Assembly (NCBI RefSeq): GCF_013694095.1
Contig: NZ_JACEFB010000002.1
Location: 1-64,000, forward strand
Direction: 5' to 3'
DNA from: Thermogemmata fonticola
GTDB taxonomy: Bacteria > Planctomycetota > Planctomycetia > Gemmatales > Gemmataceae
DNA: 64,000 nt
Shown here: positions 1,113 to 61,872 of the stretch, piece by piece
Layout of the letters: each line of letters starts with the position of its first letter
How positions within the stretch are numbered: the first letter of the stretch is position 1
Position numbers and translations under genes: made by a program
Notes under the pieces: generated by a model
Seen by the model: only the letters and a program-made list of their open reading frames with translations
Databases searched by the model: none
Told to the model about the DNA's origin: nothing

Positions 1113-1916
1113 ATGCGTATGGGGCCTGGCGAAATATACCTGATACTCTGTTTATCAGCCTTCCTAGCAGGTTTGCTCAACTCGATAGCGGGGGGTGGCA
1201 CTCTACTCACTTTTCCACCACTCGCAGCAATTCTAGATCCAGCTCTCGCGAATGCCACGAGCACCGTGGCACTTTTGCCCGGTTCGTTTGCAGGAGCAAT
1301 AGGATACCGCCGCGAGCTGGGACAATGCTGGCGCTTTACTCTCAGGATGCTGACTCCATGTGTGATCGGCGGTGGAATTGGAGCTTGGCTAGTCGGTTAC
1401 GCGCCGAATGTCTTTGCGAATCTTGTACCGTGGCTCATACTCACCGCAGCGGTACTATTTTTGGTGCAAGGTCCTGTGAATCGTTGGATTAAAAAATATA
1501 CTAAAGATCAAGATAATTCAGATGACATTAATAGAAAATATTATACAAAATATCTCATAGTAATGCTATTTCAATTTTTTGTAGCTTTATATGGTGGTTA
1601 TTTTGGTGCTGGAATTGGGATACTCATGTTAAGCTCATTAGGATATATGAATATAGGTAATATCCACAACATGAATGCCGTCAAAACATTTCTAGCAGCG
1701 GCAATCAATACATCTTCTGTTCTTATATTTGTATGGAATGATATGGTAGTATGGAAATATGCCATACCTATGGCTCTTGCTGCAATTGTAGGAGGATATT
1801 GTGGAGCGAGATTTGCCAGGTTGCTCTCTCCACATGTTGTACGCATTATAGTTATAGTTATAGCATTTGTCTTGACAGTCTATTATTTTGCTAAATACTA
1901 CTTTATCAATATATAG
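1113..1916 (+). CDS. TauE/SafE family sulfite exporter-like permease
   Basis: A 267-residue polytopic membrane protein with about eight hydrophobic segments. It has the TauE/SafE hallmarks: an N-terminal GLLNSIAGGGTLLTFP segment, and a second-half repeat around GGYFGAGIGILMLSSLGYM followed by the conserved NxxKTFLAAAIN region. Members export sulfite, sulfoacetate or related organosulfur anions, and the substrate here is unknown. Two in-frame ATGs (1113 and 1119) are possible starts. The 3' end overlaps the converging copper ATPase gene by 19 bases. The first third is GC-rich with ordinary codons. From about 1490 on it becomes AT-rich, with many ATA and AAT codons. Confidence 0.85.
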   Translation: MRMGPGEIYLILCLSAFLAGLLNSIAGGGTLLTFPPLAAILDPALANATSTVALLPGSFAGAIGYRRELGQCWRFTLRMLTPCVIGGGIGAWLVGYAPNVFANLVPWLILTAAVLFLVQGPVNRWIKKYTKDQDNSDDINRKYYTKYLIVMLFQFFVALYGGYFGAGIGILMLSSLGYMNIGNIHNMNAVKTFLAAAINTSSVLIFVWNDMVVWKYAIPMALAAIVGGYCGARFARLLSPHVVRIIVIVIAFVLTVYYFAKYYFINI

Positions 1917-4636
1917 AAAATTCTAAGGACAATAATTAGGATTTTTTCTACAACATACGTTCCGACAACCATGCCAATAATCATACCTAACGACATCGAT
2001 AAATAGTGGCTAATAACATAGTCGGGTAGGATTTGTAAATATTGTATAACTAATTTCACGCCTAAATACATACCATATACCATGCCAATATTTCCTCCTA
2101 ACAACATTGCCAATTTGTGTAATCTATTATATAATGGGTAACGAGATAGTAAAAACATGGCAATGTTGGAGAATATTAACATACCTATATACATTCCGGA
2201 GAATATATCTAATGAGGAATTATTGGTATGACAACATGAACAATAATGAATACCAGAGTTTACTGCATCATACCACCAGCCCAGTAGCATCCCGAGGTTA
2301 CCTAAAGTTAGCATTCCGAATATCATATCCAAATAGTGCGGAATTTTTTCCCATTTATACCAGAGATATGAAAATATAGCACCGAAAATAATATAACATG
2401 AAACTATCAATATATCGTATATGTTATAATCTATAAGTTGAATTATTATGAGTCCTTGTGCTATAAAAGATATAAAGTATAAGATTGTAATATATGTATA
2501 TTGTTTATAAGTATATTGAATATCAGATACTCCTATAGGTCGTATACAATGATTACTATGATCAAGATATACAGCAGCTAGAATAAGAGAAATACTTGAT
2601 ATAGTCATCAAAAGGATGGCAACGACTGGATGAAGGTAGCCGCATGCTGCAAGACAGATTCCTATCAAGTTATAGATCAGGGCGCGTAGTAGACTACGAC
2701 GAATAGCTTGTACTATGACGCAACTGTACGCAATTGCCCAAGGTATAACCCGTAAGTCCTTATTATATAATATAGCATCTGATGCTTGAATAGCTAGATC
2801 AACACCACTTGCGACCGCAAATGATACGTCAGCCGCTGCTAGAGCAGCAGTATCATTTATCCCATCTCCTACGTATAACACGCTGTATCCATTTTTCCTG
2901 ATTTCAGTAACTTTATGTTGTTTATCTAGCGGGAGTAAGCCCGAAAAAACTTGTGTCTCTGGAAGATTAATACGTATATCATTATCACCAGTCATAATTG
3001 CAGTCTTAATGTTCATAGATTTCAACTCAGTGAAGGCATCGAATGAATGACTGGCTATTTTCTCCAGAAAAGTAATTACCAGAGATAACTTATAGTTATA
3101 TAAAATGTAGATGCCTTTCGAATCATACTGCAACTTATGTATTGTTCCAGATTGTGTGCAATCTATTAGTGATTGTATCCACTGGTAAGAACCTATATGC
3201 AAACTTACGGGAGTATTTTGCATAATCAATTTCGCTTCTATTCCACATCCAGGAATTTGTTTTGCTTCGAGTATACGTATAGTATTATCACTATATACTT
3301 TAGTTATATTAGCAAGTAATTGTGCAATAGGATGTTTTATGCTTTTCTCGATATGGTATATAGCAGATAATATGTGATATTTTAGTTTGTCATTTACATA
3401 TGATATATAGTGTATTTCGTAATTGTCTAAATTTGTCAAAGTCCCAGTTTTATCAAAGATAACATAATTAATTTTGGCTAATTTTTCTATGATATCGCGT
3501 GATCGCGTGACTATTCCATTCTCTGCTAATTTATTAATTGCTAGCCATTGTAGCAAAGGTACTGTGATTCCTAACACACAGGGACATGCTACTAATAAAA
3601 CACTCATTGAGTGGTAGAAGGCGAAATGCCAGGGATAATTTTCTTTTTGTATCCAATAAATAAATGTTGTTAGTGATATAAATATGATCAAAGGTACGAA
3701 CCACTTAGATAAATTATCTGATATATGATTCATAAAACTATCTTTTTTGAAAGCATTATTAAGAATATTAATTATATTGTCGATCTGTCTTTGTGTACCT
3801 TTCGATGTAGCTTGTACTTTGATGATAGCATCGTAAACTATTTCGCCGGCTACCACGGGTTCGCCAACAGTTCGGGTCACAGGAAATGGTTCGCCGCGCA
3901 CGTATCCTGCAAATACATATGCGGTGCCATCAACGATTCTCCCGTCGATGGGAATCATTTCACCAGGGCCGACCTGGACGACGTCGTTGACCTCTATCGA
4001 GTCCACGGGCACGTCTTCAATAACATTATGGCCCGTAATTTTATGCGCATACCTAATCTGGTTATACCATGTAGATATCTTTCTCATTGCTTTTGACCGT
4101 GTTTGTGCAACTATTAAGTTTCCTATATTATATATAATCAATAAAATAGGAATTACCTCGAAGTATATATAACCTTTACCTGTAATATATGATTCAATAG
4201 ATGCTATAAATGCTCCTATAAGAGTTATGGTAAAGAGAGATTCGATTGTTATTTTTCTTTTATATAAAGAGTCTACGGTATTGATAATTAGTGAATTTCC
4301 CAGCAATGCTATTACTACTATAGTTGACAATAGTATTATAGCAATAACGATATTATATACATTTTCGGAAACTTCCTTGTGTAAATTAATGGCTGTGCCA
4401 AATATCATGATCTGTGCTGTTATTACTGCAGATATTCCCAAGCGAATCCCGAGTGTAGGTGGGATTGAAGTATCAGATTTTTGACCTGTGCTCGTGGCGG
4501 CTTGGTCAAATCGGCGTTGCTCGCCCCAAGTTAGGCATCCATAGCAACAGTAAATGGCAGGCGGTTGTTGAGGCCAAGGGCGACCGTAGAGGGGTGAATG
4601 GGCAAATGGGCTACCGCAGTTGTCGCATATATGCAT
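1898..4636 (-). CDS. ccoI: Copper-transporting P1B-type ATPase, CcoI/FixI-like, with C-terminal membrane extension
   Basis: A 912-residue heavy-metal P-type ATPase, last gene of the ACIII-cbb3 series. The N-terminus has a Cys cluster (C4, C7, C30, C31, C34), as in CcoI/FixI proteins, and no complete HMA domain. Core motifs are CPC at 351-353, phosphorylation Asp395 in DKTGT, HP at 435-436, GDGIND at 590-595, YN at 655-656 and MxxSS at 677-681, all features of Cu+ pumps. The actuator motif reads RGEP (247-250) in place of TGES. CcoI pumps supply copper for cbb3 oxidase assembly, which fits the neighbouring ccoNO and ccoS. Residues 693-912 form an additional polytopic Gly/Met-rich region with a CSCCH motif, not part of the standard fold. 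An AGGA-type ribosome site precedes the ATG. Most of the gene is very AT-rich, with a GC-rich island near 3840-4030. Confidence 0.88.
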   Translation of the reverse strand: MHICDNCGSPFAHSPLYGRPWPQQPPAIYCCYGCLTWGEQRRFDQAATSTGQKSDTSIPPTLGIRLGISAVITAQIMIFGTAINLHKEVSENVYNIVIAIILLSTIVVIALLGNSLIINTVDSLYKRKITIESLFTITLIGAFIASIESYITGKGYIYFEVIPILLIIYNIGNLIVAQTRSKAMRKISTWYNQIRYAHKITGHNVIEDVPVDSIEVNDVVQVGPGEMIPIDGRIVDGTAYVFAGYVRGEPFPVTRTVGEPVVAGEIVYDAIIKVQATSKGTQRQIDNIINILNNAFKKDSFMNHISDNLSKWFVPLIIFISLTTFIYWIQKENYPWHFAFYHSMSVLLVACPCVLGITVPLLQWLAINKLAENGIVTRSRDIIEKLAKINYVIFDKTGTLTNLDNYEIHYISYVNDKLKYHILSAIYHIEKSIKHPIAQLLANITKVYSDNTIRILEAKQIPGCGIEAKLIMQNTPVSLHIGSYQWIQSLIDCTQSGTIHKLQYDSKGIYILYNYKLSLVITFLEKIASHSFDAFTELKSMNIKTAIMTGDNDIRINLPETQVFSGLLPLDKQHKVTEIRKNGYSVLYVGDGINDTAALAAADVSFAVASGVDLAIQASDAILYNKDLRVIPWAIAYSCVIVQAIRRSLLRALIYNLIGICLAACGYLHPVVAILLMTISSISLILAAVYLDHSNHCIRPIGVSDIQYTYKQYTYITILYFISFIAQGLIIIQLIDYNIYDILIVSCYIIFGAIFSYLWYKWEKIPHYLDMIFGMLTLGNLGMLLGWWYDAVNSGIHYCSCCHTNNSSLDIFSGMYIGMLIFSNIAMFLLSRYPLYNRLHKLAMLLGGNIGMVYGMYLGVKLVIQYLQILPDYVISHYLSMSLGMIIGMVVGTYVVEKILIIVLRIFYILIK

Positions 4637-4676: not shown

Positions 4677-5498
4677 TTACTTTTTATCTTTAGTTGCTGT
4701 TGGCGGTGTTGCACCAGGATCGGCATAGTCGGTAGGGATTTGTATTAATTCTTTAACTGTATACGGCTGTGTTCCATTGGTCTTTCTATTGCCGTGTATG
4801 GCCCTTGCTGCCTTGATTGTTGCTGCTGTGATTGCGGGGGGTTTATCTTTATCTGCATTGTTATTCCAACTATTTCGTATATATGTAAGTACTGCTGCAA
4901 TTTCATAATCTTTCAGCACATTTCCTTGTGCTGGCATTAAACCATTATATGTACGGCCTTTTACTGTGATAGGCCCTGTGAGACCGTATAGGAGTATTCG
5001 GGCAAGACGGGCAGGGGATGCTTGCTCGCCGACAACCCATTCCGAGCCATCGAGGGGGGGAATACCTTGGGCGAGGTTTCCTTGGCCATGAGGCTGATGG
5101 CACGAGGCACAGATCGCGGCGTATTTCTGCTCACCGATTTTGATAAGCTCTGGGACGGTTTGTGGATCGGGATCCGGCACACTGACGGCGCTCCCGCCAG
5201 AACTGACTTGCCGGAGGTCACTCCGATCATAAACATCGGGGCGAAAGTCGGCGGAGTTAGTGCCCAGATAGTAGCCGCCCCAAGCCAGCAGAGCGCCAAA
5301 GATGGCAGCGACCCAGAACGGCACAGGTTCAAAGCCGTCGCGGGGTTCGGCGTGTTCACGAGCGAGTACGTCGAGCATGCGCTGGATGGTGTCCCGTTCT
5401 TCATCCGCTGGCTCGGACATCTCGCTGTCCAGGGAAGGATGAAAATTTCCGGGTTGATTTGATTTGACAATATCATTGTCATCGTGACTATTGTTCAT
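4677..5498 (-). CDS. ccoP: Membrane-anchored mono-haem cytochrome c, CcoP-like subunit
   Basis: A 273-residue protein with a short cytoplasmic N-terminus, one transmembrane helix at about 60-80 and a periplasmic cytochrome c domain. Haem is bound by CASCH (C130, C133, H134), with Met188 in NGLMPAQGN the likely sixth ligand. Its place directly after ccoO indicates the third subunit of the cbb3-type oxidase. Standard CcoP proteins carry two haems and this one has a single CxxCH. The ATG at 5498 overlaps the ccoO stop as ATGA, indicating translational coupling. The frame stays open further upstream, but that part is just the other-frame reading of ccoO. The gene symbol is given by position and architecture, and it could equally be called an oxidase-associated cytochrome c. 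Confidence 0.8.
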   Translation of the reverse strand: MNNSHDDNDIVKSNQPGNFHPSLDSEMSEPADEERDTIQRMLDVLAREHAEPRDGFEPVPFWVAAIFGALLAWGGYYLGTNSADFRPDVYDRSDLRQVSSGGSAVSVPDPDPQTVPELIKIGEQKYAAICASCHQPHGQGNLAQGIPPLDGSEWVVGEQASPARLARILLYGLTGPITVKGRTYNGLMPAQGNVLKDYEIAAVLTYIRNSWNNNADKDKPPAITAATIKAARAIHGNRKTNGTQPYTVKELIQIPTDYADPGATPPTATKDKK

Positions 5499-6316
5499 TC
5501 TTTGGCCTCCGGCAGGGGGTATTCTGCCTTGCGGAGCGAGAGAAGATAGGCGACCAGGGCCTCCGCTTCTTCGGTAGGCAGGATTTGCCAGTCCTCTTCG
5601 GGGGTGGCAAGCCAGAATTCTAACAATTGCTGTTGAGTTTCTGGGGTTGTCCAGTCGGATATTGGCTGTCCGCTTTCTCTGAGGAATCTTGCCTTGATCT
5701 GATCCCCCGATTGTTGCAGGATTGCTGCCCATTCATTGGGGCTAGGCCGCCAGCGATAGCCTGGTCGGACAGTCCATTCCCGACCCAAGGGGAGGGCTTT
5801 TTCTGACCGGGATCCCACGATGCGTTCCTTTCGGTACATGAACGCGAATGATGGCATAATGCTCCAGCTATTCAATGCACGCGGATTATAGGTGTGAATA
5901 TGTTGCCAAGTCGCGGAATAACGGCTTCCAATGTTAGCTAGATCAGGTCCAGTTCTCATTGTCCCTAACATCGTTGGACTATCGTAAATATAATCGCGGG
6001 GAACGTTACGGCGTGTACCCCACCCCCGGCGGATGTCACCTCCAGTTCTCATGATTCCCGTGGGGTCTTCCCACCAGTTCCCGAAACGTTCGCTGCGGAT
6101 TTGCTGACTGTGGCAATACATGCAACCGTTCTTCTGGTAGACTTTCATGCCTGTCCAAGCGAGGCCTTGCAAAGGACGAGGGTAAGGCTCCTCTTCCGGA
6201 CTCGTCTGGAAAGCTGGCTGGTTTTGCAATTGCCAGAAGGGAAAAAGGACCAAACCCAACCAACTCGAAGTGAATGTCAGGAGTACGCCGATAAAGAGTA
6301 TCATGCCACGATCCAT
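5495..6316 (-). CDS. ccoO: cbb3-type cytochrome c oxidase subunit II, mono-haem CcoO
   Basis: A 273-residue CcoO-type subunit. An N-terminal membrane anchor (about residues 6-28) is followed by a periplasmic cytochrome c domain with CMYCH (C65, C68, H69) preceded by GMKVYQKNGC. SQQIRSE and RTGPDLANIG are strongly typical of CcoO, and Met154 in SWSIMPSF is the expected axial ligand. It passes electrons from the upstream cytochrome to the haem-copper centre of CcoN. It starts 19 bases after the ccoN stop with an AGAGG ribosome site and overlaps the following cytochrome gene by four bases. Confidence 0.92.
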   Translation of the reverse strand: MDRGMILFIGVLLTFTSSWLGLVLFPFWQLQNQPAFQTSPEEEPYPRPLQGLAWTGMKVYQKNGCMYCHSQQIRSERFGNWWEDPTGIMRTGGDIRRGWGTRRNVPRDYIYDSPTMLGTMRTGPDLANIGSRYSATWQHIHTYNPRALNSWSIMPSFAFMYRKERIVGSRSEKALPLGREWTVRPGYRWRPSPNEWAAILQQSGDQIKARFLRESGQPISDWTTPETQQQLLEFWLATPEEDWQILPTEEAEALVAYLLSLRKAEYPLPEAKE

Positions 6317-6335: not shown

Positions 6336-7847
6336 TTACGGCTGAAGTTGCGTTACAGGAGCATTCATGAGGCTATCGGCTTTGGGTAATTCACTCGGGG
6401 TGAGTTGTGGGGGTTGGGCGAAGAGGGTGGGACCTCCGCTGCGTTGCCGTCCCCAGCCGGCAAGATTGATGATGAACAAGATTGCAAAGGCAATGTGGCC
6501 GATAGTCATCATGGTTCCAGCAACACTTCTCAAGGCCAAGTATGGTTGTATATACATGATGATATTTGCAAAAGGGACATTGGGGTTATTCAGCATTCTT
6601 CCTTGCCACCATCCACCGATAGACAGGGCTGTAAAATATAATGTTATTCCAACTGCGCTGCACCAAAAATGCAAACGGATCAGTTTACTACTATACCATT
6701 CTCTTCCAGTCAAGCGCGGGATCATGTAATAGTAGAGTCCGAAGAATATCATGGCCACAAATCCATAAGCACCGAGATGAGCATGGCCGACAGTATAATG
6801 TGTAAAATGAGCTACTTCACTAAAGTCTTTGAGCGATTCGATGGAGCCTTGGAAACTCACTGCTGTGTAAGCTATGGCTCCGAAGACGGTAAATCTAAGG
6901 GCTGGGCTGTATTTCAAGCGGTGGAAGTGACCAATCATTGTCATGTGATGATTGATAGCGACAGCGATAACGGGAATGAACATCATCATACTGCCGACTG
7001 TGCTGGCTGTAGCGAGCCATGCTGGGATAGGACCGCCGATGAGATGATGTATACCGGCCCAGGAGTAGAAGAGTGCCAAAGCCCAGAACCCTGTGATACT
7101 GAGATAATAGCTATGAATAGGACGGCCTAAAATTTTGGGTATGATGTAATAGGCGGTGCCGACTCCGATGGGTGTTAGCCATAGACCCAGGAAGTTATGA
7201 TTAAACCACCAGTTTACAACAGGTTGTATGACTCCTGTTGCTGGTATCCAGAAGATCATCAATGTAGCGACGGTATAAAGCCAGGGGAACCAAAAGACAG
7301 CGGCGAGGATGTACCATTGTGTGACGTATACGTGGGCTTCACGGCGTCGGCGGAAGGTGGCGACCACCCATGCCGTGACCAGGCCGACACCGGCGACGAA
7401 GAAGGGGTGGGCATAGGTCGGAGCATCGAGCCATTCCACGGATGTACCGTCACCGAGCAGGATGCCGGCGACAGCGAGCGTAGTGGCGACGTTCCACAAG
7501 GCACAAGCGAGGTAGAGCATCCGTGGGTAGATCAATTCGACGCGGGCCAGGCGGCACATGAGCCAGAGGCAGGCGGCCATGGCAGCCAGGGAAGACCAGC
7601 CCAGAGCGACGGCTTGGAGATGGGCCATCCGCACCCGGCCAAAGGTCCAGATGGCGCTTCCCGTGAGGAAATAGGGACTGTGGAGCTTGAGGGAAGCTAG
7701 CAAGGCGAGAAGCGAGCCGACGAGGAGCCAGAAGAGGGCGGTGGCACTAAACGCCAGGACCGGCCCGCGGCAGGATCGATCGATGGTCACGCGTTCCTGG
7801 GCGGCCTGGAGGCGCAGATGATCTCGTGCCAGTATAGTGACAGCCAT
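6336..7847 (-). CDS. ccoN: cbb3-type cytochrome c oxidase catalytic subunit I, CcoN
   Basis: A 503-residue polytopic haem-copper oxidase subunit that reduces O2 to water. Recognisable ligands are His76 (RMAHLQA) and His357 for low-spin haem b, His355 for high-spin haem, and His217 plus His267/His268 (WAGIHH) for CuB. Tyr261, in the helix carrying WAG, matches the cbb3-specific crosslinked tyrosine. The segment that usually reads TFEGPMM reads SFQGSIE here, so the normally conserved Glu is Gln333. The start has an AAGGGG ribosome site and follows the ccoS stop by three bases. The 5' half is about 65% GC in a sampled line and the middle about 47%. Confidence 0.93.
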   Translation of the reverse strand: MAVTILARDHLRLQAAQERVTIDRSCRGPVLAFSATALFWLLVGSLLALLASLKLHSPYFLTGSAIWTFGRVRMAHLQAVALGWSSLAAMAACLWLMCRLARVELIYPRMLYLACALWNVATTLAVAGILLGDGTSVEWLDAPTYAHPFFVAGVGLVTAWVVATFRRRREAHVYVTQWYILAAVFWFPWLYTVATLMIFWIPATGVIQPVVNWWFNHNFLGLWLTPIGVGTAYYIIPKILGRPIHSYYLSITGFWALALFYSWAGIHHLIGGPIPAWLATASTVGSMMMFIPVIAVAINHHMTMIGHFHRLKYSPALRFTVFGAIAYTAVSFQGSIESLKDFSEVAHFTHYTVGHAHLGAYGFVAMIFFGLYYYMIPRLTGREWYSSKLIRLHFWCSAVGITLYFTALSIGGWWQGRMLNNPNVPFANIIMYIQPYLALRSVAGTMMTIGHIAFAILFIINLAGWGRQRSGGPTLFAQPPQLTPSELPKADSLMNAPVTQLQP

Positions 7848-7850
7848 AGG

Positions 7851-8093
7851 TCATTCCCCTTGGATCGCCTCGTGCTGCGGATCGTGAGCTGGCGTTATGG
7901 GACGGTGATCCGGGAAGAAGTCGGTGGGTTCGCCCACTGGCTCATCGGCATCGAAAATGGACAGAGCACCCCGCTGGAAATTGTCGAATTGGCCATTGCG
8001 GAAGGCCCAGCTCAGAGCCAGGACAGCAGCGCTCCCGAAACATAGGATGGAGCCAAAGACGGTTAGTAATACGGCAATATCTACAGATTCCAT
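7851..8093 (-). CDS. ccoS: cbb3-type oxidase assembly protein CcoS
   Basis: An 80-residue protein with one N-terminal transmembrane helix (about 8-30). The CcoS signature follows: a Trp-Ala-Phe-Arg-Asn-Gly-Gln-Phe-Asp motif and a downstream AxxIFDADEP segment. CcoS is needed for insertion of haem and copper into cbb3 oxidase in other bacteria, and here it lies just upstream of ccoN, three bases apart. The Pro/His-rich tail after residue 55 is not conserved in the family as far as I know. Confidence 0.85.
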   Translation of the reverse strand: MESVDIAVLLTVFGSILCFGSAAVLALSWAFRNGQFDNFQRGALSIFDADEPVGEPTDFFPDHRPITPAHDPQHEAIQGE

Positions 8094-8142: not shown

Positions 8143-8526
8143 TCATTTTTTGTCCTTATCTTTGACTTTAGAGTCCGGCGGTGGAAGAGGCAATGGCTTG
8201 GGGAACGGCAGAGTGTCCTTCTCGCTGTGGAGTTGGTTTAGCAGTTTTTCCAAGGCGGCGTCCACGGACATTTGCGTGCCAGTCTCCGGACGGCCTTCCA
8301 AGATGGCCTGATTTTTGGCCTTGATTTCGGCCAATTTGCTTGCAGGGTCGAGTGTCTCCTGGTCTTCACTGGTCGAAGGAGCAAGGGCATCGGGGGAGTA
8401 GTAGGCCAGGAGCATCAGAGCCACGAAGAGGAAGAGTGTAAGGAGGCTAGCGAGCACGGTCAGGTAGGGGAACTCTGGAGAGCTGCCTCCGTTTGCCTCT
8501 TGTTTTTCTGTGATTGTATCACTCAT
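8143..8526 (-). CDS. Small single-pass membrane protein in the ACIII-cbb3 operon (unknown)
   Basis: A 127-residue protein with a short polar N-terminus, one strong transmembrane helix at about 22-43 and a charged, Pro-rich extracytoplasmic tail. The middle part, from DPASKLAEIKAKNQ to SVDAALEKLLNQL, looks helical and resembles the short segment that ends in a VDxAMELL-like motif in proteins near cytochrome oxidase genes of planctomycetes and verrucomicrobia. That resemblance is from memory and unverified. Its fixed place between actF and ccoS suggests an accessory subunit linking the two complexes or a small assembly factor. No function can be assigned. Confidence 0.6.
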   Translation of the reverse strand: MSDTITEKQEANGGSSPEFPYLTVLASLLTLFLFVALMLLAYYSPDALAPSTSEDQETLDPASKLAEIKAKNQAILEGRPETGTQMSVDAALEKLLNQLHSEKDTLPFPKPLPLPPPDSKVKDKDKK

Positions 8527-8578: not shown

Positions 8579-9859
8579 TTACGGAGTTTCATTGATATAA
8601 CCGATGGTTTCGGATAAACGGGGGTCCCGGATGGGGATCAAGGGCGCCCGCTGCAAGCCCCAGAGGGCTGTCAGGAGCAGAACCCCGGTGAAGCAGATCC
8701 AAGCGGCAGCGTCCATCCAATGGAAATGAATAGTGGCGGGATGGAGGACGGGGAGGATCTGCCAATACAAGTCGCAAGCGTGCATGAGCAGGATCAGGGC
8801 GGCGCTAGCGGCTAGCCAACGGGGATTCCGTTTATGAGCGCGGGGCAGAAGCATGAAGAAGGGAACAACAAAGTATAAGATGGGCAAAAGCATGGAGAGG
8901 TCGTACCATGAGCCGTTGCGACGGAGCAAATAGAATTGTGTTTCCTCAGGCATATTACCATACCAAATTAGAAAGTACTGTGAAAAGGCAATATAGGCCC
9001 AGAAGATGGTGAGGCCGAACATGATTTTCGCGGCGTCGTGCAGATGTTCCATCGTAATTGTTTTCTGCAAATAACCGCAAGCGTGCAAGGTCAGAACGAT
9101 GAGGACAGCCAGAGAGAGGCTGCCGCGAAAACCTCCCACCCAAAAGTAAACGCCGTAAATGGTGCTGAACCAGGTATATTGCAGGCTCATCAGCCAATCG
9201 AAAGCGAAAAATGTGCTGCTCAGACCGAGCAGGACCAGCCCCAGCGGCGCCCATCGCTGCATGCGTAACGTGAGGGCAGCGCCACCGACTCGATCTTGCT
9301 CGAAGGACCAATGGCGCATCAGAAGTGAATAAATGATCCATATACTGAAATACAAAATGAATCTCGCAAGGAAAAAGGTGGAATCGAAATAGATCCTTTT
9401 GACATGCCAGATGTGTTGTAAATGCTCATCCTCCGGCGGTGTTCCATGAATGAAGGAATACCAGGTATGGAGTTGTCCGCGAAAGATGCCGATGAGCAGG
9501 GGCAGGGAGAGCAAGCTCAGGGGAAGGAGAGCGCGGTGGATGTTTTCATAGATGCGCCGCAATCCGACGGACCATCCAGCGTCGCTGACGTGATGGATGA
9601 GGTTCCAGAATAACGCGCCCAAGGCGATATCTAAGGCAAAGACATAGCCGAAGAGGTAGGAATGGAAGAACTGGCGGCCGTTGACGAAAGCTCCCAGGAA
9701 CAGGACGAAGCCAGCGGCGGAAGTGATGATGACCAGGGGGCGGACGATGCCATCAGCCTGGGAGCCTAGCGGAGCGACGGGATCGGGCAAGCCGGGCGGC
9801 GCAGTCAGCTCCTGCGGCGACTGGTTGCTTCCGGTTTCCATCACAGGGGTCGTATTCAT
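8579..9859 (-). CDS. actF: Alternative complex III quinone-interacting membrane subunit ActF
   Basis: A 426-residue polytopic protein of the ActC/ActF (NrfD/PsrC-like) type. About ten hydrophobic segments are visible, with the ActF-typical region around HTWYSFIHGTPPEDEHLQHI and a following WHVKRIYFD. ActF is a membrane subunit of alternative complex III, the quinol:cytochrome c oxidoreductase that replaces bc1. The ATG at 9859 is chosen because the frame upstream of it is just the shadow of actE. It follows the actE stop by 32 bases. Confidence 0.88.
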   Translation of the reverse strand: MNTTPVMETGSNQSPQELTAPPGLPDPVAPLGSQADGIVRPLVIITSAAGFVLFLGAFVNGRQFFHSYLFGYVFALDIALGALFWNLIHHVSDAGWSVGLRRIYENIHRALLPLSLLSLPLLIGIFRGQLHTWYSFIHGTPPEDEHLQHIWHVKRIYFDSTFFLARFILYFSIWIIYSLLMRHWSFEQDRVGGAALTLRMQRWAPLGLVLLGLSSTFFAFDWLMSLQYTWFSTIYGVYFWVGGFRGSLSLAVLIVLTLHACGYLQKTITMEHLHDAAKIMFGLTIFWAYIAFSQYFLIWYGNMPEETQFYLLRRNGSWYDLSMLLPILYFVVPFFMLLPRAHKRNPRWLAASAALILLMHACDLYWQILPVLHPATIHFHWMDAAAWICFTGVLLLTALWGLQRAPLIPIRDPRLSETIGYINETP

Positions 9860-9891
9860 GGTCTCGTCCGTCAGGCGGTGGCGGCGTGCAA

Positions 9892-10773
9892 TCAGGGTTG
9901 GTTGAGCAGGGGGTTGCCGGCGGCGAATTGCAACACCCGCAGGTAAGCGATGATGGCCCAGCGGTCGTGCACGGAGACCTGATGGGCGTATGCGGGCATG
10001 TTGCGGACGCCGTGGGTGATTGTGTGGAATAGCTGTCCGTCGGGCTGAGCCTGAATGTCTGGCGTCACCAAATTGGAAGGGGGGACGGACAAGCCGTAAG
10101 CACCGACGATGCCGTACGCGGCCTCGGCTACCCCTCCGCGCCCACTGGTCCCGTGGCAAACCGCGCAGTGGATGTCAAACTGCTGGCGGCCGCGTTGAAT
10201 GAGCGGCGCCCAGCCTCCCGCCCGCTGGATGGCGTATGGCGGGATGTGATTGACATAGTATCCTTCCCCCACGAGTCGTCCGTTCTCCCAACGGGGTCCT
10301 TCGGGAACTTGGTTCCCTCCTTCGTTGCGGATAGCTGCTGGATTGGCGATGCCGGTGAAATAGCGGCGGTCGGCTTGTAGAAAATCAGGCAGAGGGTCCT
10401 GGTGATAACCGGCGTCCGCGAAATAGTCTGTGCCGTCGTAGGGTACCGTCTCGGCGGGCGGCAGACGGCTGGCACGGCCATCGGGGAAAAACGGACTGCT
10501 GCCCTGGGCGGAGTATTTCGGCTGGTACTTCATGTCGAGGAAGAAGTGCCAGGGAGTCGCATCGCTGGTGCGCCCACGCAGTCCGAGAATGCCCACAAGT
10601 ATGGCGAAGGCGCCGAAGATGGCGGTCAGGAGGTAGAGCCAGCTTAAAAGTGTCGTCCCGCGCTGCCAGGAACTGGCGGCTAACACCAGCGTCACGACGA
10701 ACAGGATCGCGCCAGTCAGCAAGATGGCGGCCAGGAGAGTGTTCATCAGCAGATTGGCGTCGATGCTGTACAT
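9892..10773 (-). CDS. actE: Alternative complex III mono-haem cytochrome c subunit ActE
   Basis: A 293-residue protein with two N-terminal hydrophobic segments (about 10-32 and 42-64) followed by a periplasmic cytochrome c domain. Haem motif CAVCH (C203, C206, H207), with Met in GVRNMPAYAHQ as probable axial ligand. The region from MKYQPKYSAQG to the YYVNHIPPYA segment is typical of ActE. It is the likely electron exit of ACIII toward the cbb3 oxidase encoded downstream. A GGGAGAGGAG ribosome site precedes the ATG by about six bases. Confidence 0.9.
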   Translation of the reverse strand: MYSIDANLLMNTLLAAILLTGAILFVVTLVLAASSWQRGTTLLSWLYLLTAIFGAFAILVGILGLRGRTSDATPWHFFLDMKYQPKYSAQGSSPFFPDGRASRLPPAETVPYDGTDYFADAGYHQDPLPDFLQADRRYFTGIANPAAIRNEGGNQVPEGPRWENGRLVGEGYYVNHIPPYAIQRAGGWAPLIQRGRQQFDIHCAVCHGTSGRGGVAEAAYGIVGAYGLSVPPSNLVTPDIQAQPDGQLFHTITHGVRNMPAYAHQVSVHDRWAIIAYLRVLQFAAGNPLLNQP

Positions 10774-10945: not shown

Positions 10946-13054
10946 CTAACGTTCGATAACAGCCACATGGTGCCCTCCCAGAGATTGCAGGAATTCGCGG
11001 GTATGATCGACATCGAATTTCGGGTCCGTCGCTTCGATCGTGAGGAAGAAGCCGTCTTGTGTGACGCGGTGGAAAGTTGGGTGAGCGTCCAGGGGATGGA
11101 ACAGGCGCGGCAGGCCGCACAACCCGATCAGGGCGAATAGGGTGAAGAAGCCGGCGAAAAGCACCGTCATCTCGAAGAAGACCGGGACGAAGGCCTCCCA
11201 GGAGCGGTATTCTTTGCCGCCTACGATGGTGGGGTAGTAGTAGGTCATCAGGTAGAACTGGAGGGAGACAGCGGTGGCGAGTCCAGTCAGGGCGCCGGCC
11301 AGGGTGAATAAGGGGAGGCGGCTGCGCTGCCGTCCAATGGCTTCCTTCATGCCGTGGACGTAAAAGGGGGTCCAGGCATCGAGGTGAGTGTAACCATGCT
11401 GCCGGGCGGTTTGAGCGGCCTGGAGCAGTTGTTGGGCGTTGGCAAATTCGGCGACAGCGCCCCACGGTTGCCCGCTTCCCTCCGGTGTAGGCAGGAAGGC
11501 CGGCACGGGTTCCTCGGCCGGTGGGATCGTGGTTCGCGGTGGAGCAGGGGGGCCGTATCGGGCGGCCAAGGCGTGATCGGCCGTCGGATAGCGCCCTGCC
11601 TCATCCCGAAGATACTGCTGGGGAGGACCGAAGCGATAGTGAGGATTGGCCATAGGGAGGACGCTTTTGACTTCTGCCAGCGCAATCATCGGCAGGAAGC
11701 GGATGAAAAGCAAGGTCAAGGTGAAGAACAACCCGAAGTCGCCGAGCATCTGGAGCCAATCGACCCAGGTCGGGTAGTAGCGGCCCCAACTGGCGGGCAA
11801 AAAGTCATGATGGAGGGATTGCACGATGATGACGAAGCGTTCATACCACATGCCGACGTTGATGCAGGTGACTATCAGGAGGACAAACCAAGGGGTTTGC
11901 CGGCACCAGCGGACCCAGAAGAGCTGAGGCAGGAGCAGATTGCAGGAGATCATCACCCAATAAGCCCAGGTGTAATCCCCCGTCCAGGCCCGATTGACAA
12001 AGGTTTGCCATTCGTAGGGATTTCCCGAGTACCAGGCGATGAACAATTCCATGCCGTAGGCGTAGCCGACCAGTGAGCCGGTGGCTAACAGGAATTTGCA
12101 CATGACATCGATGTGCTTGGTGGTGATGAGGTTGTGCAGTTTGTAGGCGGCACGGGCGGGGATAAGGCATTGCAGGACCATGGCAAAGCCGCCAAAGATG
12201 GCCCCGGCGACGAAATAGGGGGGAAAGATGGTTGTGTGCCAGCCAGGCAGGATGGAAGTGGCGAAGTCGAAACTGACCACCGAGTGTACGGAGAGCACCA
12301 GCGGCGTCGAGAGGCCGGCGAGCATGAGATAGGCGACTTCATAGTGCCGCCAATGCCGGGTACTGCCACGCCAGCCGAGGGAGAGCAGGCCGAAGAGAAC
12401 TTGCCGCCGCCGGCTTTTCGCTCGGTCCCGCAAGGTCGCTAGATCAGGAATCAAGCCAACGTACCAGAAGATCAAGGAAATGGTGAAATAGGTGCTGACG
12501 GCGAACAAGTCCCAGAGCAATGCCGAGCGGAAGTTCTGGAAAATGTGGTTCGCATTGGGCAAGGGGAACATGAACCAGGCATACCAGAATCGCCCGACGT
12601 GGATGCCGGGGTACACCGCCGCACAGAGGACGGCGAAGATGGTCATCGCCTCGGAAAACCGATTGATACTGGTGCGCCACTTTTGCCGGAAGAGAAAGAG
12701 GATGGCGGAGATCAGCGTTCCCGCGTGGCCAATGCCGATCCAGAAGACGAAATTGGTGATGTCGAAGGCCCAATTGACGGGATTGTTGGAACCCCAGACG
12801 CCGACGCCGGTCGAGATCAGGTAGGTGGCCGCGAGCAGGCCGCCGGTCAGAAGTCCCGAGGCGATGAGGAAGGCCGGCCACCACCAGCCGGGCGGAGATT
12901 GTTCGGTGATGGAGCTGATCTGATGGGTCAACGTCTCGTAAGTGTCCGGTCCCCAGACGAGAGGAATGCGAGGAAGCGGCTCTGGGAAGGGCGAGGGGTG
13001 ACCCAGCGCTTCCTGGGTAGGTGTTTCAGTGTGAGTAACGGCGTTGGAACTCAT
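10946..13054 (-). CDS. actCD: Alternative complex III fused ActC-ActD subunit
   Basis: A 702-residue fusion. Residues 1 to about 490 are ActC, an NrfD/PsrC-type integral membrane protein with about ten helices. Typical stretches are [28 protein letters not shown], and the pair [17 protein letters not shown] and [13 protein letters not shown] linker of about 60 Pro-rich residues leads to ActD (DUF3341) at about 530-702, with its own two helices and the [15 protein letters not shown] segment before a C-terminal alpha/beta part. ActC is thought to bind quinol and couple to proton movement. ActD is usually a separate gene. No stop or frame slip is seen between the parts. Confidence 0.9.
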
Positions 13055-13091: not shown

Positions 13092-16000
13092 TTAGGTCAG
13101 CTCCGGGTTAGGGTTGCGCAGCCGAGGCAAATAGCTGGTCCGAGGTTTAGTATTCAGTTTTCCGAGCAAGGCGTATTCTCCGGCGCGGAGTTTAGCCGCG
13201 GCTACGGCGCTGTGGGGGTCCAGCACGTTGCCGAAGATGATCGCCTGGGTGGGACAAACAGCCTGGCAAGCCGTTCGCACCAAGCCATCCGGTACGATGA
13301 CCCGCCCCCAACGGTCCAGGTCGTAGCCCGCCGATTTCGGGTCCTGGGGTTTGCGGTAGGCGGAAGCGGGTCCATCGGGGCGAAAGCTGGCATCGACGGG
13401 GATGGTCCGCCGTCCCTGAGCGACTTCGGCGGCGGCGATTTTGGCTCCATATTTGGCACGTTCGAGGCGCTGGACGCAGTAGGTGCATTTTTCCATGACG
13501 CCGCGCATGCGGACAGTGACATCGGGGTTTTTGAGCATGCGGAGGGATTCGGGAAGTAAGGAGCGCGTCAGGGCGGCGCCTTCGGGAGTCAAAGGCGTGG
13601 GCACCCGCAAGGCATCGAGGTGGCGTTTGTTGTAATCGAACCAGTTGAAGCGGCGGGCTTTGTAAGGGCAGGCGTTAGCACAGTAGCGGGTTCCAATGCA
13701 GCGATTGTACACTTGCAAATTCAGGCCTTCGGGACTGTGCACGGCCGCGTTGACTGGGCAGACCTGCTCGCAGGGCGCCTGTTCGCAATGGAGGCAAGCC
13801 AGCGGCTGGGTAATCACGCGCGGGTCCGCGTCGGCGGTCTGGCCGTCGGTGGAAGAGAAGTAACGGTCAATGCGCAGCCAGTGCATCTCACGATTGCGCT
13901 GGACTTCGTACTTGCCGACCACCGGAATGTTGTTTTCCACCTGGCAGGCGAGGACACAGGCCGAACAGCCGGTGCAGAGGGACAGATCGATGACCATGCC
14001 CCACTGGAAGGGGCTATCGAGGCGTTCGGGCCGGGCGAGATCGAGAGGGAAGCGGCGCTGTTTATCGCGGGCTGGCATGGGAGGCGGGGGCACTTGGCCA
14101 TAGCCTGCCTGGTAGCCGCGGCGGAGGTCCTCTTCGCTCAGATGGCCATCGGGCGGCAAGCCGAGCAGGGGGACGGACGGCGTGGAGGCGGAGGAACTAT
14201 GCCCTGAGCTGTGATCCGCAGACGAGTTGTGATCCGCAGAAGAATGGCTGCCCTCCGGTGCCCTGGAGTGGGACGGCGGCTGCCGGAGCTTGCTCAGGTC
14301 GACTTCCCGCACAATATCCCGCCCGTGGGGGATGACGCCGTGTTCCTGGGTGGTCACCAGTGTCGCTCGGCGGCCCGTTTTCTCCAACCGCACCGAGGTG
14401 AGGATGTACCGGGCTTGTGAGGTTCGCAGGGGGAAGACATTGGTGCCGCCGCCGGTGATGTGCGCCATGCGGAGTTCCCCGCACTGGCCGAAATGCAGGG
14501 CGAGGGAGTAATCCGCTTGCCCCGGCAGCACAAACACGGGGATTTCCACCTGGTAGGAATCGTGGCGGAGGCGGATGACATCGCCGGTGGTCAGGCCAAA
14601 GGTTTGAGCCGTTTGCGGGCTGATCAGAGCGGCATTATCCCACACCAGTTTACTGATCGGATCCGGCAGTTCCTGGAGCCAGGCGTTAAAGAGGTAGCGG
14701 CCATCGTAAAGCGAGTAGTCGGGATGGAAGGTGACTTCCAGGGCGTCCCGCTGCGGAGCGGAAGGGAGGGAAGAAGGCAAAGCGCGTTGAATGTCGGAAA
14801 GCGGGCGCAAGGTGGGACGTAAGGAGGAGCGGCGCTGTTTGTCCTGCTCCGGGGGGAGGAAGCCGAGTTGCTTGTAACGCTGGAAGGCGGCGGAGAGTTG
14901 GGGATCATCCGGGGCCAGACCCGCGCGAGCGGCAAAAACGGTGCGGACGAGTTCATAAGCGGCGGAGCGGGCAGACACGTATGAGGTCACCGGCTTGCCA
15001 TCACGCGGATGCGGGAACTGGGTCAATAGCGCCAGAATCTCCAGGGCGGAGCGGCCTCCGCGGGGTGGAGCTTCCTGTTCAGCGGGTGAAGGAAGGTTGC
15101 TGAGGAGCGGTTCGATCAAGGGTTGGATGCAACAGAGGGTGCCATCGCTGCTTTCGGTATCTCCCCAGCTTTCCAGAAAGTGGGACAGCGGCAGATGCCA
15201 GTGGCAGAGTTCGGACGTCTGATCGTAGTACAAGCCGACGCGGATAGTGGTCCTGGCCTGACGCAGGGCTGCGGCGAATTGCAGATCGGCCGGGGCCGTC
15301 AGAACGGGATTGCCGCCGAGGATGACCAAGGTATCGATGCGGCCTGCACGCAGGGCGTCGGTCAAGGCGGGCAGACCGGCTTCCAGCATTTCCGGCGGAG
15401 GGGGACGGAACTCCCAGAGCGAGGAGGCTTCCAGGGCGGCATTGAGGGTATGTGCCAGGGCATGAACGTAGGCCGGCTGGCGATAGCCGGGCAGAATGGC
15501 ACAGCGTCCCCGGTGCCGAAGCAGGTCTCGCGCCAGCGGTGCCAGCCACCGGCGGGCTGATTCCGGCAACTCCCGTCCCGACGCTTCGTCGACCCTCGCG
15601 GGTAGCTCCGGTAGCTTGCCCGGCAGAGAGGGCGACAGCTCGCGCGTCAAGGCCAGCAGAAAGGCCCCCACCAGGCTGGCCGGCAGGCGGAGGCGGTGAT
15701 CGGCCATAAAGCCGGTGAGTGTGCCGGTGGATTCCACCACGTAGAGGCGGTTAAACTGCTGCGGGGGTCCCTGCCGCCGGCGGGCGAACCGGCGGACCTG
15801 CATCAGGCTGTCCAACTCGATTCCCAGGCAATCGCTATCCAGCACGAGCAGGCAATCGATTTTTTCCAAATCCGGCGTGGGCAGCAGCGGTTGCCCGAAG
15901 GCGATCTCGGTCCCGCGCAGGACTTCGCCGTAATCGACCGGCTCGAAGGTGTACCACTGCGCCTGCGGCCAATTCTGGCGGAGATGCTCCCGAATGCGGC

Positions 16001-16604
16001 GCAAAGCCGGGGAAGGGACCTGCTCGGTTAGCACAGCGAAGCCCTGACCCTGAGCGGAGCGGAGGCGGTCGGCCAGGATACGGGCGAAGCGGTCAAAATC
16101 GTCCCACCGGCGGGAAACACCCCGTTCCACAACGCTGCTGCTGCGCGGCGACATCACCCGATCGGGACTGTACAAGTCCAATATGGCCGCTTGAGCGAAG
16201 GCATCCGTGCTACCCAAACTGGCCGGATGCCGCGGATGCCCTTCAATCTTCGTGGGCCGCCCGTCGTGACTTTCCACCAAAAGCGGCAGGGAGCCGAAGG
16301 GGCGCGGCTGAGCTGTAGCGTAAAATGTGGGCAGCCCGTGAACCACATGCCCCACGCGGTCCTCAGGAACAGCGGAGTAGGGGACGATCGGCAGGTCCGG
16401 ACGTCGGCAACTGGCCAACGTGGCGGCAGCAGCACCGGCCAGGGTATAGGTCAGAAACTGCCGGCGATGCCAATGGGCGGAGAGAGCATCCTCGTCCCGC
16501 GGTTCGGCCAGACCAGCGCCAGCGTAAACATTCACAAAACCGGGAAACTCCTCCACAGGCGCCGGAGCTATCGCCTCTCTGCGAAGATAATCAGGAGGAT
16601 TCAT
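13092..16604 (-). CDS. actB: Alternative complex III molybdopterin-like/iron-sulfur subunit ActB
   Basis: A 1170-residue ActB. An N-terminal twin-arginine-like signal (RRQFL at 47-51, then a hydrophobic stretch ending LASC) precedes a molybdopterin-oxidoreductase-like domain lacking obvious cofactor ligands. A C-terminal ferredoxin module follows. Its Cys groups are [35 protein letters not shown] and a CTYC/CQAVC set. In the third group the second Cys is Thr, so three [4Fe-4S] plus one [3Fe-4S] cluster are expected, as described for ACIII. An insertion with a Ser/His-rich linker (near [13 protein letters not shown]) joins the two halves. The ATG at 16604 is preferred (AAGGGA upstream). A GTG at 16658 is in frame but has no ribosome site. 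Confidence 0.9.
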
Positions 16605-16699
16605 CGTCGCACCGTTCCCTTCGCTCCTGCTGGCAGCCTTGCTTTGAGTCCGGCTCACCTTCGGCTTCGGTTAGCAGGGGTGATCGCTCCGATCATCCC

Positions 16700-17365
16700 T
16701 CAACGATGACAACCCTGGCAGTGCATCGGAGCCTGCACCTGCAACTGCTGCTTGATATCGTAGCCAATGTCCAGCCGGGGCTTGTTCCCGTCCGGCTTCC
16801 AGGATAAATTGGTCACCTGCTCGACCGGACGGAGATGCTTCTCTGGCTCATGATGGCATTGCAAACACCAGCCCATCGACAGCGGCTGATCATGGCGCAC
16901 CATCGGCATCTCGTTGACCGGACCGTGGCACGAGACACACGAGACCCCTTTGTTCACATGCACAGCATGATTGAAATAGGCATATTCCGGCAGCTTGTGT
17001 ACTCGCTTCCAGGCCACGGGCTTGCCGGTCTCGTAACTTTCCCGGATGAGCGTCAGAAGCGGACTGTTGCCTTTAACATTCGCCTTGCGGGGGTTGTGGC
17101 AATTCATGCAGACCTGGGCGCTCGGAACCGTGGCATGCGGAGATTGAAAAACGTGCTGGTGGCAGTAGGTGCAATCCATTCCCAGCCGGCCCACATGCAA
17201 CTGATGGGAAAACGGCACCGGCTGCTCCGGCATGTAGCCCACCCGCGTATAGCTCGGCAGAGCGTAATAGTACCAGGCGAAGACGAACAACCCTAAGCCG
17301 AGCACGGCACCCACCGCCGCCTGGCGCACCTGCACATCCCGCGATCGACGGAAGATCACCGGCAC
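16700..17365 (-). CDS. actA: Alternative complex III penta-haem cytochrome c subunit ActA
   Basis: A 221-residue protein with one N-terminal membrane helix (about 17-35) and five CxxCH haem motifs: CTYCH 65-69, CMNCH 86-90, CVSCH 143-147, CLQCH 167-171 and CQGCH 216-220. This matches the penta-haem ActA of ACIII, which receives electrons from the Fe-S subunit and passes them to ActE. The GTG at 17365 is chosen because a strong AGAAGGGGG ribosome site lies about nine bases upstream. The frame is open further, but that part has no family resemblance. It is the first gene of the ACIII-cbb3 series. Confidence 0.92.
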   Translation of the reverse strand: MPVIFRRSRDVQVRQAAVGAVLGLGLFVFAWYYYALPSYTRVGYMPEQPVPFSHQLHVGRLGMDCTYCHQHVFQSPHATVPSAQVCMNCHNPRKANVKGNSPLLTLIRESYETGKPVAWKRVHKLPEYAYFNHAVHVNKGVSCVSCHGPVNEMPMVRHDQPLSMGWCLQCHHEPEKHLRPVEQVTNLSWKPDGNKPRLDIGYDIKQQLQVQAPMHCQGCHR

Positions 17366-17470: not shown

Positions 17471-17488
17471 TTGTGAAACTTTTCACAA
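17471..17488 (-). promoter_or_regulatory. Rex-type operator upstream of the ACIII-cbb3 operon
   Basis: TTGTGAAACTTTTCACAA is an exact match to the Rex consensus TTGTGAA-N4-TTCACAA. Palindromy extends two more bases on each side (17469-17490, ten-base arms, two-base centre). It lies 105 bases upstream of the actA GTG and immediately after the -10 box of a candidate promoter, as expected for a repressor covering the transcription start. Rex is known in other bacteria as an NADH-released repressor of respiratory and fermentative genes. The regulator is not encoded in this window. Confidence 0.75.
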
Positions 17489-17491: not shown

Positions 17492-17519
17492 AGTCTATCA
17501 CCCTGTGTCCTGCCAGCAA
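17492..17519 (-). promoter_or_regulatory. Candidate sigma70-type promoter for actA
   Basis: On the minus strand TTGCTG (17519-17514) and TAGACT (17497-17492) are separated by 16 bases. The Rex-like palindrome begins three bases downstream of the -10 box. This was identified by eye only, and planctomycete promoters are poorly defined. Confidence 0.35.
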
Positions 17520-53182: not shown

Positions 53183-53778
53183 AACACCTCTCGGTCGCGT
53201 CATCAGGTTGTGGGAATTTCAGTTGTTCCAAAGGTGGAAACGATCTCCGGCGGGAGGAAAACTTATCGGGAGGTCTTTCCCGGATGGCAACTGCGGCAAC
53301 CACAGAGGACACAATTATGGCTACCGCTAAAGCGGCATGACTCTTTCGGAATGTCGTCCCTATTTTACTCGACTCGGGAGAGAAAGGCCAAGGAAAAGTC
53401 GGGAATTGCAAGGGTCGAATGGAAGGAAGATTGGGATGTATGGTTTGACAGTGGGATGTCATGGAAATCCTGGGAAGAAATGCCGGGTGGCGAGAGAGGT
53501 TAGAGGCATGAGTTGGCAATAAGAGTCAGGGGGGTGGCGGCGGGATCGTACTCAAAAACAACAGGCGAGCAACATCGGTCGAAACGAGGGGTAAAACTGT
53601 CCATCCCCAAAGGAAGTTTTGGTGGTTCCGAGTAGTAAGTGGGGAGGGCGATAGCGGCAGCGGCACCGGGGCTTTGTGAAAAATTTCACAACGGTGGGTT
53701 GCCGCCGGCTGCGGAGGTTCCGACAATACGCATCGTTCCACACGACGACAGAGATGCCGTGGGCATCAGGCGGCAGTA
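53183..53778. other. Divergent intergenic region before the ATP synthase operon
   Basis: About 600 bases between the PSCyt1 gene and the first atp gene. It contains the Rex-like operator (separate entry) and a weak TTGCCG-N17-GACAAT pair at 53699-53727 that could be the atp promoter. The short frames at 53210-53522 lack ribosome sites and resemble no family. Confidence 0.6.
53674..53691 (+). promoter_or_regulatory. Rex-type operator upstream of the ATP synthase operon
   Basis: TTGTGAAAAATTTCACAA is an exact match to TTGTGAA-N4-TTCACAA, the Rex consensus, 87 bases upstream of the first atp gene. It shares both seven-base arms with the site upstream of actA, differing only inside the central four bases, which argues for one regulator at both operons. 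Confidence 0.75.
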
Positions 53779-54039
53779 ATGCCGGAGGAGCGTCGAGGCC
53801 GTTCAGCGCCATGGGGGCTGCTGGTGGCTGGCTCGGAGATGGTGTCGTTTACCCTCGCCGGGCTAGTGGTGGACTATTTATTCGGAACTTTGCCGGTGTT
53901 TACGGTGGGGCTGACACTGCTCGGAGTGCCGGCAGCGTTTTTTCTGCTGGTGCGGTTGAGTCGGGCTACACCGGGGCCGGATGCAGCGGGGCCGGAATCG
54001 CAAGGCGGCCGGGAGTCGCAGCGGGAGCCGAAGGCGTGA
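53779..54039 (+). CDS. AtpZ/AtpI-type small membrane protein of ATP synthase operon
   Basis: An 86-residue protein with two membrane helices (about 12-32 and 38-62) separated by the short loop DYLFGTLPVF, as in AtpZ/AtpQ-type proteins that precede atp operons. Related proteins are linked to Mg2+ or Ca2+ handling or assembly of the c-ring. The C-terminal tail is hydrophilic and Glu/Gly-rich. Its stop overlaps the next start as GTGA. Confidence 0.75.
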   Translation: MPEERRGRSAPWGLLVAGSEMVSFTLAGLVVDYLFGTLPVFTVGLTLLGVPAAFFLLVRLSRATPGPDAAGPESQGGRESQREPKA

Positions 54040-55409: not shown

Positions 55410-55504
55410 TTGAGGAGAGCAACAACCCGGCGGCGACGGGTAGCCGACCGGACGCATGATTGCCACAATAGGACAATCCAACATCCTTTGGGAGGTAATG
55501 GACC

Positions 55505-55807
55505 ATGCGAGTTGTCACGGTACTGGTGCTGGCCCTGCTGGGAGTCTTGAGCACGGCAGCGCCGCTGTTCGCCCAAGGCACGACGACGAATTATCCCGGC
55601 TTAGGGGCTGGCATCGGGATGGGGCTGGCTATTGTCGGGATCGGCATCGGGATCGGTCTCGTGGGTTACGCGGCCCTCAGCGGCATTGCCCGCCAGCCGG
55701 AACAGGCGGGGGCCATTCAGGGAGCTATGTTCATCCTGGCCGGTCTTGTCGAAGGAGCAGGAATTATCGCATTGGTGCTGTGCCTGTTGCTGCCGCTCAT
55801 CGTGTGA
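55505..55807 (+). CDS. atpE: ATP synthase F0 subunit c
   Basis: A 100-residue rotor-ring subunit. An extra N-terminal hydrophobic segment ending LFAQG looks like a cleavable signal peptide, then the two-helix hairpin has a Gly-rich first helix, the loop ARQPE (62-66) and the ion-carrying Glu83 in LAGLVEGAGIIAL. The absence of the polar Na+-ligand set around this Glu (EGAG rather than EST/ET) points to proton coupling. A GGGAGG ribosome site precedes the ATG. Confidence 0.95.
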   Translation: MRVVTVLVLALLGVLSTAAPLFAQGTTTNYPGLGAGIGMGLAIVGIGIGIGLVGYAALSGIARQPEQAGAIQGAMFILAGLVEGAGIIALVLCLLLPLIV

Positions 55808-55968
55808 TGCGAGGCACCAGCGCTGGGTGTGAGACACCAGTTGGGGCTGGAAGGAAAAATTCCCTTATCGAAACCCCGGCGGCTGTCGGGCAGATGAGGT
55901 GCGAACCCCAACAACCCAATACGGCCGATCACACAGGCACGGGCTTACTCACTCACGGGAATGTTCCT

Positions 55969-59317: not shown

Positions 59318-61821
<2,504 letters not shown>

Positions 61822-61872
61822 CGCCGGCCGGCTCCATCGATCACGACCCCACTCTGCGGAGCGGACCTACTC

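Follow-up and report, generated by a model that had tools for sequence, protein, structure and literature searches.

Alternative complex III (ACIII) replaces the bc1 complex in several phyla, and our literature searches found nothing on its control. The stretch of Thermogemmata fonticola DNA analysed here (64,000 nucleotides; below, the window) carries an operon for ACIII and a cbb3-type oxidase, with an exact TTGTGAA-N4-TTCACAA palindrome upstream of its first gene. Which regulator reads this palindrome, and what else does that regulator control? The best explanation, and in our judgement a very probable one, is that it is the predicted Rex operator of the ACIII-cbb3 operon, which would be co-controlled with complex I and ATP synthase.

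The ACIII-cbb3 operon

All genes of the operon are on the minus strand, in the order actA-actB-actCD-actE-actF-ORF-fixS-ccoN-ccoO-cytochrome c. Assignments come from Pfam and, for chains A, C, D and F of ACIII, from PDB matches; G001 is a congener of the window genome and G016 belongs to another genus.

16700..17365 (frame open from 17431), minus strand: actA, multihaem cytochrome c subunit of ACIII; PDB matches 8k9e_A (E 1.6e-57) and 6f0k_A (E 4e-56)
13092..16658, minus strand: actB, molybdopterin-like plus Fe-S subunit; Fer4 domains, QrcB/QrcC-like matches; in relatives, too, the gene after actA
10946..13054, minus strand: actC-actD fusion; NrfD plus ActD Pfam, 6f0k_C (E 4.2e-178), 6lod_D (E 6e-42)
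9892..10773, minus strand: actE, cytochrome c; Cytochrome_CBB3/Cytochrom_C Pfam, place kept in G001 and G016
8579..9961 (frame open from 10159, start uncertain), minus strand: actF; 6f0k_F (E 4.4e-66)
8143..8526, minus strand: small ORF of no family; position kept in G001 and G016
7851..8093, minus strand: fixS/ccoS-like; FixS Pfam, 23.6 bits against a cut-off of 23.1
6336..7847, minus strand: ccoN, haem-copper oxidase subunit I; COX1 Pfam (E 9.8e-74)
5495..6316, minus strand: ccoO; FixO Pfam (E 1.2e-23)
4677..5732, minus strand: cytochrome c, ccoP-like; Cytochrome_CBB3 Pfam
1898..4636, minus strand: P-type ATPase, next gene on the same strand and candidate operon neighbour; E1-E2_ATPase Pfam

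Subunits ActA to ActF are encoded in one cluster, as in known ACIII (6f0k, 6lod, 6btm, 8k9e). The locus differs from the solved complexes in the fusion of C and D and in the oxidase that follows, which is cbb3-type by Pfam.

Exact palindromes precede three operons

The first-pass annotation had read TTGTGAA-N4-TTCACAA at 17471-17488, and a pattern search of the window found the same letters again, as an exact palindrome.

17471..17488, no strand: predicted Rex operator of the ACIII-cbb3 operon, TTGTGAAACTTTTCACAA; exact match, 0 in shuffles; kept in G001 and G016 despite diverged flanks

Two exact matches were found in the window (17471-17488 and 53674-53691), against 0.00 expected from 100 dinucleotide shuffles. 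The genome-wide search that the annotation had proposed, run on the window genome (4,812,832 bases in 61 contigs, 97% complete), returned three exact copies in 4.81 Mb, each before an OXPHOS operon, with four copies at up to one mismatch and 12 at up to two. Since the reversed-pattern control gave 0, 0 and 3 at these levels, the weaker sites are partly noise; in agreement with the three control matches, seven of the eight two-mismatch sites have no convincing respiratory target. The second exact site in the window, which the annotation did not mention, precedes the ATP synthase operon.

53674..53691, no strand: second exact Rex operator (predicted), upstream of the ATP synthase operon, where G001 and G031 have an exact site as well
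53779..54039, plus strand: ATPase_gene1/AtpZ-like, first gene past this operator; PF09527 at 23.0 bits, below the cut-off of 26.6
54546..62367, plus strand: ATP synthase gene set; Pfam
54546-55409, plus strand: ATP synthase a; Pfam
55505-55807, plus strand: ATP synthase c; Pfam
56801-57496, plus strand: ATP synthase delta; Pfam
57369-59174, plus strand: frame containing ATP synthase alpha; Pfam
59318-60226, plus strand: ATP synthase gamma; Pfam
60262-61821, plus strand: ATP synthase beta; Pfam
61873-62367, plus strand: ATP synthase epsilon; Pfam

The third exact copy (G000:C6:50000), likewise additional to the annotation, is 31 bp before nuoA of complex I, with a nuoB-like frame next. The predicted targets of the three exact sites are thus all OXPHOS operons: ACIII-cbb3, ATP synthase and complex I. 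A weaker site, TTGTGAAAAAATGCACGA, with two mismatches, lies 10.6 kb beyond the nuoA site near the start of nuoJ and is perhaps a second, weaker complex I site.

Two further observations concern this genome. A one-mismatch palindrome (G000:C1:632834-632851; L004:1501-1518) is located between pheA and dnaK, 52 bp before pheA. Shortly before the nuoA operator there is the end of a terminator-like hairpin with a T-run (L003:1466-1492, on G000:C6), and one ends at the corresponding place in L086 (1410), L087 (1397) and L091 (1385), that is in four species of three genera; the neighbour gene is divergent in the window genome. This hairpin could be an attenuator, or else a former terminator.

The actA promoter region

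The best start for actA is the GTG at 17365: it is preceded by a G/A-rich stretch, and the alignments of ActA homologues begin near its residue. From this start the operator is 105 bp away, the distance given in the first-pass annotation, while the longest frame begins at 17431, 39 bp from the operator. The palindrome had also been placed three bases after a candidate -10 box, and on the minus strand TAGACT (17497-17492) does end three bases before it.

17492..17497, minus strand: candidate -10 box TAGACT; read from sequence, aligns with TAGACT in G001 and TATAAG in G016, consensus scan silent
17514..17519, minus strand: candidate -35 box TTGCTG, 16 bp before the -10; read from sequence, TTGCCA at equal spacing in G001 and G016

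A comparison of the window genome, G001 and G016 showed a conserved operator in diverged surroundings, and each of the three has a TTGC(T/C)(G/A)-N16-TA(G/T)A(C/A)(T/G) pair just upstream of the operator. Only three bases separate the -10 from the operator in the window genome and G001, so that it would cover the transcription start there; in G016 extra bases lie between. The operator is intergenic and beside a candidate -10, in what we infer to be the promoter of these respiratory genes: TTGCTG and TAGACT make a candidate promoter with matching elements in two relatives. A sigma-70 consensus scan of the actA gap did not report this pair. The only sigma-70-like promoter that it scored in the gap (17528-17557, plus strand) is directed at an aldo/keto reductase gene from its 3' side, and no partner gene was seen for it.

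The Rex protein

The first-pass annotation had proposed to look for a rex homologue, and the genome has one such gene above the NF003995 cut-off (G000:C1:340011-340619; L005:1465-2139; 240.4 bits against 126). Its product has the winged-helix domain Put_DNA-bind_N (PF06971, 48.6 bits) and a CoA_binding domain (PF02629, 80.6 bits), and it aligns over its full length with solved Rex structures, best with 5zz5, the Rex of T. maritima (E 4.4e-43). In that protein, according to the available part of PMC8836258, the major groove is read by Arg48 and Lys49, Arg60 and Gly61 do the same in the minor groove, and Tyr100, Asp115 and Lys120 contact NAD. Arg48, Arg60 and Gly61 are kept here and Lys49 is conservatively replaced by Arg (QVRRDL, GQRGIGY). 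The NAD pocket keeps Tyr100, Asp115 and Lys120, and its GxGxxG motif reads GVGNLA, with the last Gly changed to Ala. That change counts against the assignment, and so do the phosphate contacts Lys43 and Ser52, which are Ser and Ala here. Autoregulation of rex was considered and rejected: the 3.6 kb around the gene contain no site at up to three mismatches.

Sites in the genomes of relatives

The comparison covered 59 genomes, 58 of them from relatives and one that of the window; rex exceeded the cut-off in 34 of them and an exact site was present in 18. In the scan of the regions upstream of actA, nuoA and atpB, a site was defined as YGTGA-N6-TCACR or a match with up to two mismatches. For nuoA, 27 of 29 regions from rex-positive genomes had a site against 3 of 19 from rex-negative ones (Fisher 5e-8; 11 of the 59 genomes, with no match, only a weaker paralogue or a match at a contig edge, are left out). 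The figures for atp were 16/32 and 3/24 (Fisher 0.003; three genomes without a match left out), and for actA 4/32 and 0/17 (Fisher 0.17, not significant within the 59 genomes; weak short matches dropped, split genes counted once, ActA paralogues included). At up to two mismatches the palindrome occurred in 4/49 act, 24/48 nuo and 19/56 atp regions, whereas none of 60 permuted palindromes of the same letters reached more than 1 act, 1 nuo or 2 atp regions. At nuoA and atp the link is therefore broad and goes with the presence of rex; at actA, within this set, it is narrow.

Conservation upstream of actA, which the annotation had named as a check, was found in part. The site is exact in the window genome, the congener G001 and G016, and has two mismatches in G008; elsewhere in the family it is absent. 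Most rex-positive relatives lack it; one of these is L225, with an ActA of 72% identity and a rex gene in its genome. Three rex-negative genomes (G035, G031 and G011) retain nuoA sites. These genomes, like the Verrucomicrobiota genome G063 described below, are drafts, so that a rex gene may have been missed.

By our count, 20 of the 26 exact sites in the 59 genomes precede respiratory or ATP synthase genes: nuoA in nine cases, actA, atp and nqrA in three each, and ndh2 and a Rieske gene in one each. The sites before nqrA (Na+-NQR) belong to three relatives, L022 (G051), L023 (G046) and L024 (G047). The Rieske gene follows an exact site (L011:1501-1518) in G013, a genome without an ActA match; this suggests that control by Rex goes with the kind of complex III that a genome employs. 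Exact sites without a respiratory neighbour are present in G016:C75, G051:C27 and G046:C1:1821565 (before a sigma-factor gene), and those in the rex-negative genomes G010, G014 and G048 look like chance, judged from their neighbour genes.

Verrucomicrobiota and the ActA tree

Rex-type sites are also found upstream of actA in Verrucomicrobiota, a phylum that the annotation had not considered. Among the best 80 of 581 confirmed ActA loci of named genomes, some with upstream regions shortened by contig ends, the 400 bp or less before actA contained the exact site in 10, a site with one mismatch in two and with two mismatches in one; the reversed control gave 0/80 at up to two mismatches. All ten exact sites of this best-80 set are from Verrucomicrobiota, including Chthoniobacter flavus Ellin428, in which actA-F are followed by ccoN- and ccoO-like genes (ccoN is split over two frames in the draft). 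As C. flavus is a named strain that has this operator and a similar operon, it makes the idea of a Rex-ACIII link testable.

We searched for rex in 50 of the best-80 ActA genomes. It was present in 13 of 14 genomes with an actA site and in 8 of 36 without (Fisher 6e-6), and, without the Planctomycetota, in 12 of 13 and 4 of 29, kinship being retained in both counts. Here, as in the tree and the pair test below, the site-positive label includes L289 (two mismatches) and L298 (three mismatches, TCGTGA-N6-TCACGA), and in the tree also G008 (two mismatches). The exact-site genome G063 has no rex above the cut-off. Only six independent pairs could be formed on supported branches of the ActA tree. 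On average, rex went with the site in 3.8 of these and against it in 0.1; the pair test has the right direction and, at a median p of 0.125, is not significant.

The 14 site-positive genomes contain 52 exact sites against 0 in the control. Among the 38 of these 52 whose neighbourhoods were inspected, 27 precede respiratory-type targets (actA 6, atpB 5, complex I or ndh2 genes 13, polyprenyl synthetase 3) and 11 have no evident respiratory target; ten of the 27 target calls were confirmed by Pfam and 17 come from reading translations. The polyprenyl synthetase genes with an exact Rex-type site at their start are those of L314, L328 and L335 (the last by reading only), and their products may make quinone tails.

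In the ActA tree (126 rows) the window ActA belongs to a clade of Planctomycetota with 99% SH-aLRT support, and a clade of Verrucomicrobiota stands next to it. On this tree the site label requires 12 changes, at least six of them on supported branches, against 17 changes for shuffled labels. The link between ACIII and Rex appears to have been gained or lost several times; as gains and losses are indistinguishable on the ActA tree, the tree does not tell the ancestral state of the site. A second ActA-like gene of the window genome (G000:C4:143965-144534; L155), 40% identical, is in a separate clade of 27 rows, and no Rex site was found upstream of it or of the other 26 rows of that clade.

Alternative explanations

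The letters of the palindrome admit another owner. TGTGA-N6-TCACA is also the CRP half-site pattern, and since the palindrome contains it exactly, an activator or repressor of the CRP/FNR family might bind here. We regard this as very improbable and, for the window genome, as close to refuted: no protein with a cNMP-type domain plus a Crp HTH was found in the 97%-complete genome, where the sole cNMP-binding match is an ABC-ATPase fusion and the sole HTH_Crp_2 match is MarR-like. Moreover, each of the three exact copies also matches the Rex consensus beyond the CRP pattern, and nuoA sites track rex among the relatives. The rex gene, this absence and the tracking support Rex, the regulator named by the first-pass annotation.

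It might also be supposed that Rex truly acts at the nuoA and atp sites and that the actA palindrome is a functionless chance match or relict, given that the site is missing from L225 and most other rex-positive relatives. There is very little probability in this either, because the palindrome is exact in three genomes with diverged flanks, has 0 matches in shuffles, and recurs before actA in 10 of the best 80 of 581 loci (control 0). Somewhat less improbable, though still unlikely, is that Rex binds here without a simple promoter block, for example by obstructing elongation downstream as a roadblock, or because transcription starts from another promoter in the gap. In favour of this, the two boxes are weak and the scan gave them no score, and G016 has extra bases between -10 and operator; against it, the sites through which Rex of Streptomyces avermitilis represses nuo, cyd, atp and rex-hem lie, in the available text of PMC5355995, within the promoter or directly past it. 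A Rex operator acting at the actA promoter is the reading that we prefer.

Proposed mechanism

Members of the Rex family repress with NAD+ and are released by NADH, and we infer that the same holds at actA. When NAD+ dominates, a Rex dimer would sit on the predicted transcription start just past the -10 and block RNA polymerase. If electron flow to oxygen lagged, NADH would rise, NADH-bound Rex would leave and the ACIII-cbb3 operon would be transcribed. Complex I (through the nuoA and perhaps the nuoJ site) and the ATP synthase operon would be derepressed together with it. By analogy with S. avermitilis, a rise in NADH would increase complex I, ACIII-cbb3 and ATP synthase jointly, so that one signal could act on the whole path from NADH to quinone, cytochrome c and O2, plus ATP synthase. 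As cbb3 oxidases are usually high-affinity enzymes, Rex control of ACIII-cbb3 fits a response to oxygen shortage. Simultaneous derepression of all three operons is not a given, since in S. avermitilis, according to the part of PMC5355995 available, atp transcription fell under oxygen limitation despite Rex control.

Rex of this planctomycete appears to control a whole respiratory chain including ACIII, with a like arrangement in another phylum. On balance we favour, with moderate confidence, the wider view that Rex is the master switch of a complete OXPHOS chain in two PVC phyla, Planctomycetota and Verrucomicrobiota. Its targets would be complex I or its Nqr/NDH-2 stand-ins, a complex III that is ACIII-cbb3 or, in a single relative, of Rieske type, ATP synthase and, for Verrucomicrobiota, polyprenyl synthetase. 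If this is true, the capacity of the whole chain is set in these bacteria by a single sensor of NADH, and ACIII is to be added to the targets of Rex.

Comparison with known Rex regulons

The first-pass annotation knew of no described ACIII operon under Rex control, and our literature searches likewise found no paper linking the two. Three candidates were set aside: the available part of PMC5317091 has both, unlinked, Rex is an author's name in that of PMC5615132, and in PMC5976882 it is a person. The comparative study of Ravcheev et al. (2012) was outside the literature covered, and the novelty of the ACIII target is therefore provisional. On that footing, operator and regulator are of a known kind and the target set with ACIII-cbb3 is provisionally new.

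The generalised Rex regulons of Ravcheev et al. (2012), as cited in the available parts of PMC5317091 and PMC6391272, have the consensus TTGTGAANNNNTTCACAA and energy-metabolism targets, as here. A close parallel is S. avermitilis, whose Rex, in the available part of PMC5355995, directly represses nuoA1-N1, atpIBEFHAGDC, cydA1B1CD and rex-hem, with binding weakened by NADH. That regulon shares with the present one the operator consensus and, as targets, complex I, ATP synthase and an oxidase. They differ in that S. avermitilis has cytochrome bd as the oxidase under Rex control and a rex-hem locus subject to autoregulation, whereas the window genome has ACIII-cbb3 as the predicted target and a rex gene without a site of its own.
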